Shown here: in pieces, positions 36,208 through 39,744 of the stretch
Position numbering within the stretch: position 1 is the first letter of the stretch
Layout: every line of letters starts with the position of its first letter
From: Amycolatopsis mongoliensis
Lineage (GTDB): Bacteria > Actinomycetota > Actinomycetes > Mycobacteriales > Pseudonocardiaceae
Assembly (NCBI RefSeq): GCF_030285665.1
Contig: NZ_CP127295.1
Coordinates: 5,518,001 to 5,582,000, forward strand
Direction of reading: 5' to 3'
DNA length: 64,000 nt
Translations under genes and position numbers: made by a program
Notes under the pieces: generated by a model
The model's input: only the letters and a program-made list of their open reading frames with translations
The model's database searches: none
Told to the model about the DNA's origin: nothing

Positions 36208-36546
36208 TCAGCGGCGCCGGAGCCGGGCCCGCAACCCCCGCCTCGGCTTCGGCAGGTGCCCACCCGCGATCAGCCACTCCACGAAAGCGTCGGCGTACGC
36301 CCCCGACCGTTCGGTGTCCCGCTTCGGCCGCGAAGCGGTGAACTCCGCGAACAGCGGCCCGTAGCGGTCCCCGAGTGCCTCCGCCAGCTCGGGCCGCTGG
36401 TAGGCCAGCACCCGCCCGTGCTTGCGGCGCAACACGTTCGCCTCCACGCGAAGCCGCGCAGCGTCGAAGCCCGCCGGTGCCGGGCCGTCCGCCAGCAGCG
36501 CGTGCAGCAGCTCCGCCTGTCGTGCCGCCAGCTGTTCCCGGCTCAC
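36208..36546 (-). CDS. Small DUF692 partner protein (possibly HvfC/DUF2063-like)
   Basis: A 112-residue basic-tailed protein (begins VSREQLAARQAELLHALL, ends KPRRGLRARLRRR). The pattern of an alpha-helical N-terminus followed by YQRPELAEALGDRYGPLFAEF and an AYADAFVEWLIAGGHLP segment resembles the helical domain of HvfC-type (DUF2063) partner proteins that bind DUF692 enzymes, but the match is weak and the length is shorter than usual. GTG 36546 overlaps the DUF692 gene stop (GTGA). A role in presenting the peptide substrate to the enzyme is inferred. Confidence 0.6.
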   Translation of the reverse strand: MSREQLAARQAELLHALLADGPAPAGFDAARLRVEANVLRRKHGRVLAYQRPELAEALGDRYGPLFAEFTASRPKRDTERSGAYADAFVEWLIAGGHLPKPRRGLRARLRRR

Positions 36547-37343
36547 ACCGTCACCGCCGCCCGCAGCGCCGCCAGCTCCGCGGCGAGTTCGTCGTCGGTC
36601 GGGTAGTCGTCGTCGCGTTCGAGGAGCACACCCGGCGGGTCCGTCCGGCGGCGGAGCTCGGCGAGCAGCGAAAGGACCTCCGGCAGCACCGGGTGGGCGT
36701 GGGTGTCGTGGTAGACGCCGTCGCGCTCGACGCCGCCCGCCATGTGCACGTACGCCAGCCGCTCCCACGGGATGCCGTCGAGGAACGCCACCGGGTCGGT
36801 GCCGATGTTGCGGGCGTTGGCGTAGAGGTTCGCGACGTCGATGATCAGCCGGCAGTCCGTCCGCTCGGTCAGCTCGGTGAGGAACTGCTCCTCGGTGAGC
36901 TCGGCGTCCGGCCAGTCCAGCACCGCGGCGATGTTCTCCAGCGCGAACGGGACGTCCACGATGGACTGCGCGAGCCGGACGTTGGCCACCAGCACGTCCA
37001 GGGCCTCGCGGGTGCGGGGGAGCGGCATCAGGTGGCCCGAGTCCAGCCCGCCCGCGCGCACGAAGCAGACGTGGTCGCTGACCAGGGGCGCGTCCAGGGC
37101 CCGCGCGATCTCCGCGAGGTGCTGGACGCGCCCGGTGTCCAGCGGCTCCGCCCCGCCGAGCGACAGCGAGACGGCGTGGGGCAGCACCGGCATGCCCCGC
37201 TGGCGCAGCGCGTCCAGGGTTTCCGGGAGGTGGTCGGCGTGCAGGTTCTCGGCGACCACCTCCACCCAGTCGACGCCGGGCAGGCGCGCGATGGACAGGT
37301 CCAGCTCGTGCCGCCAGCCGATCCCGATGCCGAGCTCACCCAC
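36543..37343 (-). CDS. DUF692 (MNIO-family) multinuclear iron oxygenase
   Basis: A 266-residue TIM-barrel enzyme. Motifs from N to C: GIGIGWRHELDLS, EVVAENLHADHL, HAVSLSLGGAEPLD, APLVSDHVCFVRAGG, PFALENIAAVLDW, RLIIDVANLYANARN, YVHMAGGVERDGVYHDTHAHPV. The His/Asp/Glu ligands of the di/tri-iron centre are all present. Characterised relatives (MbnB, TglH, ChrH) oxidatively modify Cys side chains of peptides. GTG 37343 has GGAGG eight bases upstream and overlaps the end of the Cys-tailed membrane-protein gene, so the two are coupled. The likely substrates are the Cys-rich tails encoded upstream. Confidence 0.9.
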   Translation of the reverse strand: MGELGIGIGWRHELDLSIARLPGVDWVEVVAENLHADHLPETLDALRQRGMPVLPHAVSLSLGGAEPLDTGRVQHLAEIARALDAPLVSDHVCFVRAGGLDSGHLMPLPRTREALDVLVANVRLAQSIVDVPFALENIAAVLDWPDAELTEEQFLTELTERTDCRLIIDVANLYANARNIGTDPVAFLDGIPWERLAYVHMAGGVERDGVYHDTHAHPVLPEVLSLLAELRRRTDPPGVLLERDDDYPTDDELAAELAALRAAVTV

Positions 37344-38256
37344 CGCACCCACCTCCGCCGCACGACGAGCCGCCACCGCAGGAAGAGCCGCTGCTGCAGG
37401 ACGACGAGCTGGAGCACGAGGACCCGCTGCTGCACGAGGATCCGCCCGACGAAGCACCGCCGCCGCCGTAGAACGGTGGCATCAGCGCCGCGCTCAGTTC
37501 TTCGTCCGGGTACATCGCCCAGCCGCCGAGGGCGACCGCGGCCGCGGCGCCGCCGAGCAGCACGCCGCCCGCCAGCATCCCGGCCGGCACCGGCCCGCTC
37601 GTCGCGGCGCGGGCCTGGCCGAGCAGGCGGTGTCCCGCGGCCGACGGCTGCCGGGCGCCGGTCTTCGACCGCCGGACCGCGGCCACGATCGTCAGCACCG
37701 CCGCGATCAGCACCAGGAACACCAGGACCCCGACCGGACGGCCGAGCGAGATGCCGTTGACCAGCCGCACCACGCCGAGCACCAGCACCGCCAGCTGCAG
37801 GACGAGCCCGATCGTCCGGGCCTGCCGCTTCGCGGCCGCCGACGCCAGCAGGCCCCGCTGCTCGAGGCCTTCTTCCAGGGCGCGCATCGCCGCGGAGCCG
37901 CGGACGCGCGCCCGGATCGTCGCGGTCGTCTTGAGCTGCGCGACGTCGGCGACCGCCCGCTCCAGCGGTTCGGCCGGCCTCGTCCCGGCCTGGCTGATCT
38001 GCTTGTAGCTGTTGACGCGCAGCTGGCCGCGCTCCACCAGGGCCGCGATCGCCGCGTCGACGGCCCGGTCGGGGCCGCCCGCGAGGAACGCGAGCTGGTA
38101 GACGGTCGGCGGCGGGCCGGGCTGCACGGTGTCCGCCCGCAGCGCGCGGCTCGCGAAGACCCCGGACACGATGACCCGGATCAGCAGCACCGCGCCGAGC
38201 AGTGCGATGTAGAGGACCACGAAATCCGGTCCGGAGATGCCCCACGGGTCGTTCAT
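37336..38256 (-). CDS. TIGR04222-type membrane protein with Cys/Ser/Gly-rich C-terminal tail
   Basis: A 306-residue protein. N-terminal helix (FVVLYIALLGAVLLIRVIV), a middle region of about 100 residues with PPTVYQLAFLAGGPDRAVDAAI and RALEEGLEQRGLL, two further helices (about 155-195), a Gly/Ala-rich helix near 225, then a tail of about 45 residues. The tail carries six Cys: five at exact C-x5-C spacing, then C-x4-C, in Ser/Gly linkers. Starts ATG 38256 after GGGGAG. It is followed by the DUF692 gene with an 8-base overlap. The tail is a plausible substrate of that enzyme; a metal-binding role is also possible. Confidence 0.85.
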   Translation of the reverse strand: MNDPWGISGPDFVVLYIALLGAVLLIRVIVSGVFASRALRADTVQPGPPPTVYQLAFLAGGPDRAVDAAIAALVERGQLRVNSYKQISQAGTRPAEPLERAVADVAQLKTTATIRARVRGSAAMRALEEGLEQRGLLASAAAKRQARTIGLVLQLAVLVLGVVRLVNGISLGRPVGVLVFLVLIAAVLTIVAAVRRSKTGARQPSAAGHRLLGQARAATSGPVPAGMLAGGVLLGGAAAAVALGGWAMYPDEELSAALMPPFYGGGGASSGGSSCSSGSSCSSSSSCSSGSSCGGGSSCGGGGCGG

Positions 38257-38322
38257 CGCCCGTCTCCCCTCAGTGAAGTGCGGTTACCGTAGCTGTGAGA
38301 CGCAGGTGCTCGCGTCGGCGTT

Positions 38323-39228
38323 TCAACCGCCGCAGCCCCCGCCGCCACCTCCACAGCCGCCGCCCCCGCCGCCGCAGGAGCTGCCGCCGCCACCGCCGCA
38401 GGAGCTGCCACCGTAGTAGCCGACGGCGGCGGCGCCGCCCGCCCCCGCCCACCGGCTGCGGCGGATGGAGGCGCGGGTGTCCGCCACCACGGTCGAGCGG
38501 CTGATGGCCAGCCGGACGTCCTTGTCGGGGTGGCTGCCGAACCCGCCGGCCGCGACCGCGCCCGCCGGGCCCGAGGTCAGCGAGCCGGCGCGCTCGGCTT
38601 CGCGGGCCGCGGCCCGCCCGGCGGCGGTGGCCTTCACCTCGGGCGTGTTCGCGGCGCGGGTCGTGACGAAGACGGCCGCGACCGTGCCCAGCACCAGCAG
38701 GCCCAGCAGGAAGCCGACCGGGTGCCCGGTGGAACTGCCGGCGATCAGCCGGACCACCCCGAGCACGACCACCGCCCAGTACGCCACGGCGGTGGACACC
38801 CAGGTGAGACGCACTTTCCGGACGTCGACGAGCAGGCCGCGCGCGATCAGCCCGTGCTCCAGGTCGACCAGCGCCGGGTGCTGCCGCACCTCGCGGCGCA
38901 CCGAGTCGACGGCGGTGCCGGTCTTGCCGATCCGCGCCAGCGCGGCCCGGCCCAGGTCGTCCGGCGCGCTGCCCCGGACGCGGTGCACGCGGCCGGTGCC
39001 GTCCATCCGGATGGTCTGACGCTCCAGCAGGCGCGCGACGACGAATTCGCCGGCCCGCGTGCGGCCGCCGGTCAGCAGTGCGAGCTCTTCGCCCTTTTCC
39101 GGCACGCCCGCCGCGCGGCCGCGCAGCAGCTGCCGGGTGCGCACCGCGGCGTACGCCGCGGGCAGGAGCAGCAGGCCCAGGTAGAGGCCCGTGAACAGCG
39201 GTCCGGGAATGCCCCAGGTGTCGGTCAT
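38323..39228 (-). CDS. TIGR04222-type membrane protein, paralogue with Gly/Cys-rich tail
   Basis: A 301-residue paralogue of the next gene: same N-terminal start (TDTWGIPGPLF...), same ELALLTGGRTRAGEFVVARLLERQTI block, similar HPALVDLEHGLIARGLL segment, two helices (about 145-185), then a tail. Here the tail is glycine-dominated with four Cys at C-x7-C-x6-C-x6-C spacing, ending CGG. ATG 39228 follows GAGGG. It is the first gene of the four-gene unit; 66 bases separate it from its paralogue. Both paralogues end within a few residues of their last Cys. Confidence 0.85.
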   Translation of the reverse strand: MTDTWGIPGPLFTGLYLGLLLLPAAYAAVRTRQLLRGRAAGVPEKGEELALLTGGRTRAGEFVVARLLERQTIRMDGTGRVHRVRGSAPDDLGRAALARIGKTGTAVDSVRREVRQHPALVDLEHGLIARGLLVDVRKVRLTWVSTAVAYWAVVVLGVVRLIAGSSTGHPVGFLLGLLVLGTVAAVFVTTRAANTPEVKATAAGRAAAREAERAGSLTSGPAGAVAAGGFGSHPDKDVRLAISRSTVVADTRASIRRSRWAGAGGAAAVGYYGGSSCGGGGGSSCGGGGGGCGGGGGGCGG

Positions 39229-39302: not shown

Positions 39303-39725
39303 TTAGGACTCGGGTACCAGTTTCAGCGAAATCGAGTTGATGCAGTAGCGCTGGTCGGTCGGGGTCGGGTAGCCCTCACCCTCGAAGACGTGCCCGAGGT
39401 GGCTGTGGCAGGAGCCGCAGAGCACCTCGATGCGCTTCATGCCCATGGTCCGGTCCTCGCGCAGCAGCACGGCGTCGGAGTCGGCGGGGTCGTAGAACGA
39501 CGGCCAGCCGCAGTGGCTCTCGAACTTCGTGTCGCTGCGGAACAGCTCGGCACCGCACGCGCGGCACTCGTAGACGCCGGTGGTCTTGGTGTCGGTGTAC
39601 TCACCGGTGAACGGCCGTTCGGTGCCGGCCTGGCGGAGTACCGCGTACTCCTCCGGGCCCAGCTCCGCCCGCCATTCCTGCTCGGACTTCACGACGCGCG
39701 GGGTGGCGCCGACAACGGGTTTCAT
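39303..39725 (-). CDS. msrB: Methionine-R-sulfoxide reductase B
   Basis: Reduces methionine-R-sulfoxide in oxidised proteins. The 140 residues contain the zinc-binding CxxC pairs (YECRACGAELF and VLCGSCHSHLGHVF), GWPSFYDP and the catalytic Cys in QRYCINSISLKL. ATG 39725 (MKPVVGATPRVV) is used, matching the usual MsrB start; in-frame GTG codons at 39734 and 39743 would add a few residues. It lies 74 bases upstream (in the same orientation) of nothing cotranscribed that is clearly related; the next gene downstream is the Cys-tail operon. Confidence 0.95.
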   Translation of the reverse strand: MKPVVGATPRVVKSEQEWRAELGPEEYAVLRQAGTERPFTGEYTDTKTTGVYECRACGAELFRSDTKFESHCGWPSFYDPADSDAVLLREDRTMGMKRIEVLCGSCHSHLGHVFEGEGYPTPTDQRYCINSISLKLVPES

Positions 39726-39744
39726 ACCTTTCACCCGGTCCACG

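Follow-up and report, generated by a model that had tools for sequence, protein, structure and literature searches.

A candidate membrane-surface system for cysteine modification in Amycolatopsis mongoliensis: an MNIO enzyme, its partner and two TIGR04222 proteins with Cys-rich tails

What does an MNIO (DUF692) enzyme modify when the cysteine-rich stretches encoded beside it are the tails of membrane proteins? This question is raised by a locus of Amycolatopsis mongoliensis lying in the window analysed here, that is, the whole stretch of 64,000 nucleotides from position 5,518,001 to 5,582,000 of contig NZ_CP127295.1, in a genome of 10.81 Mb assembled as a single contig. The locus holds two genes for TIGR04222 membrane proteins (A and B), the MNIO gene and the gene of a small partner protein. 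Our answer, to which we give somewhat better than an even chance, is a prediction from sequence comparison: the locus would encode a membrane-surface modification system, in which the MNIO enzyme and its partner oxidise the tail cysteines of A and B and the tails then act as a tethered buffer on the cytosolic face of the membrane.

Genes of the locus and their relatives

On the minus strand the genes follow each other in the order MsrB, gene A, gene B, MNIO and partner. The features on which the argument depends are given below with their positions in the window (aa, amino acids; TM, transmembrane; pLDDT, predicted local distance difference test).

38323..39228, minus strand: gene A, TIGR04222 membrane protein, 301 aa, three TM segments by hydropathy; TIGR04222 94 bits (NCBIfam cut-off 43)
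38326..38418, minus strand: Gly/Cys tail of protein A, 4 Cys, read from the sequence
37336..38256, minus strand: gene B, TIGR04222 membrane protein, 306 aa; TIGR04222 153 bits (NCBIfam cut-off 43)
37858..38112, minus strand: loop domain of protein B, residues 49-133, GPP34/GOLPH3-like, presumably cytosolic
37663..37839, minus strand: TM2-TM3 hairpin of protein B, residues 140-198, within the GPP34-like domain; AlphaFold2 helices 140-171 and 176-198, and hydropathy peaks
37339..37467, minus strand: Ser/Gly/Cys tail of protein B, 6 Cys, predicted to be disordered (pLDDT <50 at 264-286 and 292-306), presumed substrate
36543..37343, minus strand: MNIO (DUF692) enzyme, 266 aa; PF05114 282 bits (cut-off 25)
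36208..36546, minus strand: MNIO partner, PME-type 2, 112 aa from the GTG at 36546; PF26136 in the match table

A preliminary description of this DNA had claimed four minus-strand genes here, two of them encoding TIGR04222-type proteins with Cys tails and one a 266-residue DUF692 enzyme with iron-ligand motifs, the last three genes being joined by overlaps of 8 and 4 bases; all of this was borne out. Gene B and MNIO share GTGGGTGA, and MNIO and partner share GTGA. The motifs located in the enzyme are PHAVSL (H56), SDH (D90/H91), ALEN (E136), IIDVANL (D169), YVHMAGG (H200), HDTH (D213/H215) and LLERD (E242), whose His, Asp and Glu residues are the likely iron ligands. The fourth gene, described earlier as encoding a small basic protein, fits a PME-type 2 partner of MNIO, as it is encoded behind MNIO and has no DUF2063 signature above the cut-off. 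Its structure model, compared with the PDB, ranked MbnC first and TglI second in a second-look ranking, and its sequence profile gave two chance rows only against the same database. In the whole genome TIGR04222 was found twice and MNIO once, each time at this locus. Among the best 80 related loci the nearest named ones are from Amycolatopsis, with an enzyme 97% identical.

Several known systems resemble the locus in part. The MNIO sequence aligns with those of TglH (8hci) and MbnB (7dz9), and the partners of the same systems, TglHI (3-thiaglutamate) and MbnBC (methanobactin), are those ranked at the top for our partner model, but their substrates are free peptides. In the captophorins (bufferins, oxazolin and fontiphorin) MNIO and partner likewise adjoin a Cys-bearing substrate, and the BufB bufferin maturase model (NF050167) was the best-scoring NCBIfam model for our enzyme, at 203.7 bits under a cut-off of 310. 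Captophorins differ in their small precursors, in the Sec signal peptide of bufferins and oxazolin and in a DUF2063-RRE (PME-type 1) partner, whereas at our locus the Gly/Ser/Cys tails belong to integral membrane proteins and the partner is short and of PME-type 2. No DUF2282 match was found in A or B, and DUF2063 reached 16.6 bits at the locus, under its cut-off of 27.2, so that the locus does not qualify as a bufferin/captophorin cluster.

The preliminary description took the arrangement, to its author's knowledge, to be functionally undescribed; that it is undescribed is not supported. Antoine et al. 2025 (PMC12452194) predicted in silico the association of TIGR04222 with MNIO, mostly in Actinomycetota, and proposed some TIGR04222 tails as MNIO substrates. 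Their clusters and ours share the gene pairing, the Cys-rich C-terminal tails and the PME-type 2 partner; indeed the strain behind their PME-type 2 model A, Saccharothrix sp. NRRL B-16314, is also the source of one of our related loci (L044). The passages of that paper on which we draw, supplements excluded, report no DUF2063 gene, a PME-type 2 gene in at least 10% of TIGR04222 clusters and many clusters apparently without a partner gene; they hold no experiment on TIGR04222 proteins and no mention of unlinked or single-TM tails. A TIGR04222 peptide also appears in a Pseudonocardia bacteriocin-type cluster in the part of PMC5183585 used here. No further paper on TIGR04222 with MNIO was found in the open-licence literature, supplements excluded, which does not prove that none exists. 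To the printed record we add that tail cysteines track MNIO, that the partner is near-universal and often fused, that the tail is probably on the cytosolic side, and that unlinked single-TM proteins carry similar tails.

Tail cysteines and the presence of MNIO

The association was followed at three distances. The related loci are the best 80 of at least 497 confirmed relatives and, judged by title, come from Pseudonocardiaceae genera apart from one Rhodococcus and one Nocardia record, some contigs ending early. MNIO and partner are kept in all 80, and a TIGR04222 gene was found by phmmer in 79 (L041 is the exception), a conservation that speaks against a chance arrangement. Across the phylum (149 genomes) TIGR04222 scored above its cut-off in 6 genomes, MNIO in 9 and both in 5 including our own. 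Across the class (296 genomes) the figures were 74, 66 and 53, which are lower bounds for TIGR04222 since the best nine candidates per genome were scored. The preliminary description had named a lack of co-occurrence in other genomes as evidence against itself; among the 295 class genomes other than our own, 52 have both families, 21 TIGR04222 only, 13 MNIO only and 209 neither (p 2e-28 by Fisher's test, with no correction for kinship). Among the 47 class-wide regions that have both MNIO and TIGR04222, 46 contain the partner domain, whereas the published clusters, in the passages cited, have it in at least 10%. In 27 of the 47, for example L087, L095, L104 and L111, MNIO and partner share one open reading frame (ORF), and these genes encode natural fusion enzymes.

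A further line of evidence is the composition of the tails. We examined 86 regions with TIGR04222 and another 14 that hold MNIO but no listed TIGR04222 gene, and called a tail low-complexity when at least 50% of its last 40 residues were G, S, C or D. Of 95 closed TIGR04222 proteins 59 qualified; the 36 left out, with less than 50%, include 15 Cys-less proteins of a Streptomyces-like family (f4) and L132 beside MNIO, and L148 was also set aside, its TIGR04222 ORF being cut by the contig end. Beside MNIO every low-complexity tail has at least two Cys (39/39, or 38/38 without L144 at a contig edge). In genomes without MNIO this is true of one tail in ten, the other nine being Cys-free and mostly Gly with Asp. 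At genome level, tails with and without Cys number 38 and 4 when MNIO is present and 1 and 9 when it is absent (p 2e-6, uncorrected for phylogeny), and within family f64 alone Cys tails occur in 7/8 MNIO genomes and in 0/3 without MNIO.

The tails were also counted in other ways. With Asp left out of the definition, at least two Cys are found in 39/39 tails beside MNIO, 4/10 with MNIO elsewhere in the genome and 1/6 without MNIO. Genome G217 was set to MNIO present in the main count for the MNIO fragment that lies beside the gene at a contig edge (L144), the family search of that genome having found no MNIO; counting without Asp and with G217 as MNIO-free gives 42/6 against 2/5 (p 0.002). Because tail cysteines track the presence of MNIO across genomes, the tails are the likeliest substrate of the enzyme. 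To that extent the interpretation in the preliminary description stands, with tails that are part of membrane proteins and families that co-occur, and its claim that the arrangement is undescribed is not supported.

The cysteines also have a regular context. The residue directly before is G or S for 722 of 750 Cys (150 proteins) and for 195 of 208 (44 proteins), and the last Cys is followed by GG in 138/150 and 34/44 proteins, L155, L157 and L166 being left out of these counts. In the tail of protein B, C287, C299 and C304 are kept in at least 90% of 53 rows. At L149 (G181) the TIGR04222 Cys tail continues into an apparent remnant of the partner domain, as if an intervening MNIO gene had been lost. 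In Saccharothrix loci such as L037, L039 and L040 an extra, weak and Cys-less TIGR04222 relative, ending in a Trp/Gly-rich hydrophobic stretch, adjoins the Cys-tailed ones.

A second, unrelated membrane anchor appears to carry the same kind of tail; its gene either adjoins MNIO or, in Streptomyces-like genomes, lies apart from it. Of the 14 MNIO regions that lack TIGR04222, six code for a protein of 83-119 aa that has one TM segment, a basic stretch directly behind this segment and a similar tail, the net charge being 0 to +1 before the segment and +4 to +7 after it (the Cys-rich ORFs of L127 and L178 are not of this type). A database search with these six gave 20 matches, and in 19 of them the charge lies between -1 and 0 ahead of the segment and between +2 and +8 behind it; the twentieth (186 aa, with its TM segment at 97) departs from the pattern. 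A profile of 23 rows, biased to Cys tails since it was built from Cys-tailed rows, found 35 places in 33/296 genomes, 27 of which are MNIO genomes. Of these places 31 were newly read and judged by eye, and seven were left out: L225, whose frame as read contains no TM segment, and six that lack a Gly tail (L231, L233, L234, L235, L237 and L239). Two of these six, L231 and L234 from MNIO genomes, have a Gly/Ser linker and a Pro/Ala-rich or Ala/Ser end without Cys. Where a Gly tail stands behind the TM segment, at least two Cys occur in 20/21 cases from MNIO genomes (L222 has one); of three from MNIO-free genomes two are Cys-free, with Asp instead, and L214 has five Cys. Among the 31 fetched stretches only that of L222 contains an MNIO gene, so the other pairings are unlinked.

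Family f4 is called Streptomyces-like here in part because its single-TM tails resemble the named Streptomyces matches P0212 and P0215. Fifteen f4 genomes have no linked Cys tail, and in 12 of them an unlinked single-TM Cys tail is present (the exceptions are G328, G238 and G414). MNIO is present in every one of the 20 f4 genomes that gave a single-TM match, and f4 alone therefore gives no contrast. In at least four f4 loci (L095, L100, L104 and L109) a gene, presumably DUF4142-like, lies between the fused MNIO-partner gene and the Cys-less TIGR04222 gene.

Placement of the tail

The tail was placed in the periplasm, from predicted topology, in the published clusters (PMC12452194, passages as above), whereas ours looks cytosolic. 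Topology was read from 61 chosen sequences, namely 40 class-wide Cys-tailed ones, 19 from related loci, and A and B. The charge bias of the flanks (positive-inside) speaks for a cytosolic tail in 60 of the 61, and a fourth segment is hydrophobic (Kyte-Doolittle value, KD, >=1.6) in 19. For protein A the hydropathy maxima are 1.85, 2.02 and 2.45 in TM1, TM2 and TM3 and 0.67 in the fourth segment, and the AlphaFold2 model of protein B (mean pLDDT 77.6) has no fourth TM helix.

The loop domain of TIGR04222 proteins, which is on the tail side, appears to have a GPP34/GOLPH3-like fold by model and profile comparison. Unlike GPP34/GOLPH3/Vps74, it is split by a TM hairpin. According to the part of PMC7425898 used here, GOLPH3 associates peripherally with membranes and also has a cytosolic pool. 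The window proteins gave no match to the Pfam GPP34 model (PF05719). A Foldseek search with the whole model of protein B gave two chance rows and was discarded, as was the comparison of the TIGR04222 profile with the PDB, whose five rows were led by a taste-receptor construct (E 0.0008) matched by its Gly-rich end and included two MarR-type rows (E 0.2 and 0.36).

Could the tail instead lie outside the cytoplasmic membrane, like a bufferin, being modified before or during insertion and then chelating copper there? The published topology, taken from AlphaFold2 models, and the periplasmic action of bufferins (both PMC12452194, passages as above) speak for it. Some of our own results also weigh against a cytosolic tail: the fourth segment of protein B is hydrophobic (KD 1.78), so that four TM helices, and with them an outside tail, are conceivable for B alone; the part behind TM3 gave 0.13% in hhalign, which lends no support to GPP34 likeness there; and unrelated helical rows stood among the GOLPH3 rows. 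Nevertheless the rarity of a hydrophobic fourth segment, its low value in protein A, the nearly uniform charge bias, the basic stretch behind the TM segment of the single-TM proteins and the GPP34-like loop on the tail side all argue against an outside tail, which we consider improbable. The tail probably faces the cytosol, by sequence and model, contrary to its published placement.

The proposed system and its meaning

We propose the following sequence of events. The tail would stand after the GPP34-like domain on the cytosolic membrane face, and with a cytosolic tail enzyme and substrate share a compartment and an export step is therefore unneeded. MNIO and partner, two proteins here and one fused protein elsewhere, would bind the tail at the inner face, and MNIO would oxidise its [Gly/Ser]-Cys units in A and B, most likely to 5-thiooxazole with a change of -4 Da per Cys. 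The modified tail would stay at the membrane as a tethered buffer for soft metal (copper) or for thiols and oxidants. We infer the tail as the modified site from the comparisons above.

The exact chemistry is predicted by analogy and is the weaker inference, because the BufB cut-off was not reached and the partner is of PME-type 2, not PME-type 1. In relatives, 5-thiooxazole, the loss of 4 Da and copper binding have been reported (PMC13097082 and PMC13419390, in the parts used here); PMC13097082 also gives an absorbance near 305 nm for 5-thiooxazole. Three points tell against the same product here: the BufB score itself, the tie between 5-thiooxazole and PME-type 1 partners in the part of PMC13097082 consulted, and the occurrence of PME-type 2 partners with other chemistry, as in pearlins, aminopyruvatides and biphenomycin-like peptides (PMC12452194).

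The role of the buffer, copper or thiol/oxidant, is speculative and was drawn from analogy, from the adjacency of MsrB in one family and from one expression table. Two neighbours lie upstream.

39303..39743, minus strand: MsrB methionine sulfoxide reductase; TIGR00357 163 bits
39745-40068, minus strand: 107-aa protein with a C-terminal hydrophobic segment, upstream of MsrB; kept in 69/80 related loci

The latter matched nothing in Pfam or NCBIfam at E<=1. MsrB as a general part of the core was rejected, being present in 71/80 related loci but in 1/100 class-wide regions, that one in our own family; these regions mostly extend only about 3.5 kb on each side.

Tentatively, and at somewhat less than an even chance, we extend the proposal: one MNIO-partner enzyme, acting also in trans, may modify unrelated actinobacterial membrane proteins that share only a cytosolic Gly-Cys tail, giving a thiooxazole-coated inner face. 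In Streptomyces-like genomes the fusion enzyme would serve an unlinked single-TM substrate.

Some observations do not sit well with tail modification. Where MNIO lies elsewhere in the genome only 4/10 low-complexity tails have at least two Cys; L155, with an odd non-repeat end and at least two Cys, belongs to a genome in which no MNIO was found; at L132 the Gly/Ser tail adjoining MNIO is Cys-free; and the mycobacteria-like L214 genome (G306), with its five tail Cys, gave no MNIO even in a repeat search. Of the f4 regions that hold the 15 TIGR04222 proteins without a low-complexity tail beside MNIO, four also hold a Cys-tailed TIGR04222 protein and eleven pair MNIO with Cys-less TIGR04222 only, and in four further f4 MNIO regions (L170-L173) neither TIGR04222 by profile nor a Cys tail was found. 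The 15 f4 regions gave no linked Cys tail except short Arg/Ser-rich ORFs, judged to be frame artefacts. Moreover, absences are soft because the class-wide searches scored the top 9 or 18 candidates per genome, and p values overstate because the genomes are related.

The f4 loci that keep MNIO beside Cys-less TIGR04222 genes, together with the mycobacteria-like genome, would suit another explanation, in which the tails bind metal as plain thiols and MNIO, linked through a common stress response, modifies something else. We find this quite improbable, given that nine of the ten low-complexity TIGR04222 tails in MNIO-free genomes lack Cys and that an unlinked Cys tail occurs in 12 of the 15 f4 genomes where none is linked. 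That the membrane protein is an unusually large precursor of a ribosomally synthesised and post-translationally modified peptide (RiPP), whose modified tail is cleaved and set free as a small metallophore, accords with the RiPP precursors on which MNIO enzymes are described and with the treatment of TIGR04222 proteins as putative precursors (PMC12452194, passages as above), yet it too seems quite improbable, as two unrelated anchors keep the membrane attachment and the core shared by the related loci comprises TIGR04222, MNIO and partner, peptidases and exporters not having been searched for systematically.

The MNIO products described in the portions of the literature consulted are peptides. 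If the proposed modification of the tails is true, a membrane protein would be modified in place on the cytosolic face, and the MNIO family would become a protein-modifying one. The natural MNIO-partner fusions would be ready-made single-chain reagents, of the kind for which an HvfB-HvfC fusion has been engineered (PMC13419390, in the part used here). A cytosolic tail would alter which experiments are sensible, and the unlinked tails offer a route to further targets from sequence. For the actinobacteria, the system would mean the gain of a membrane-bound metal or redox buffer.

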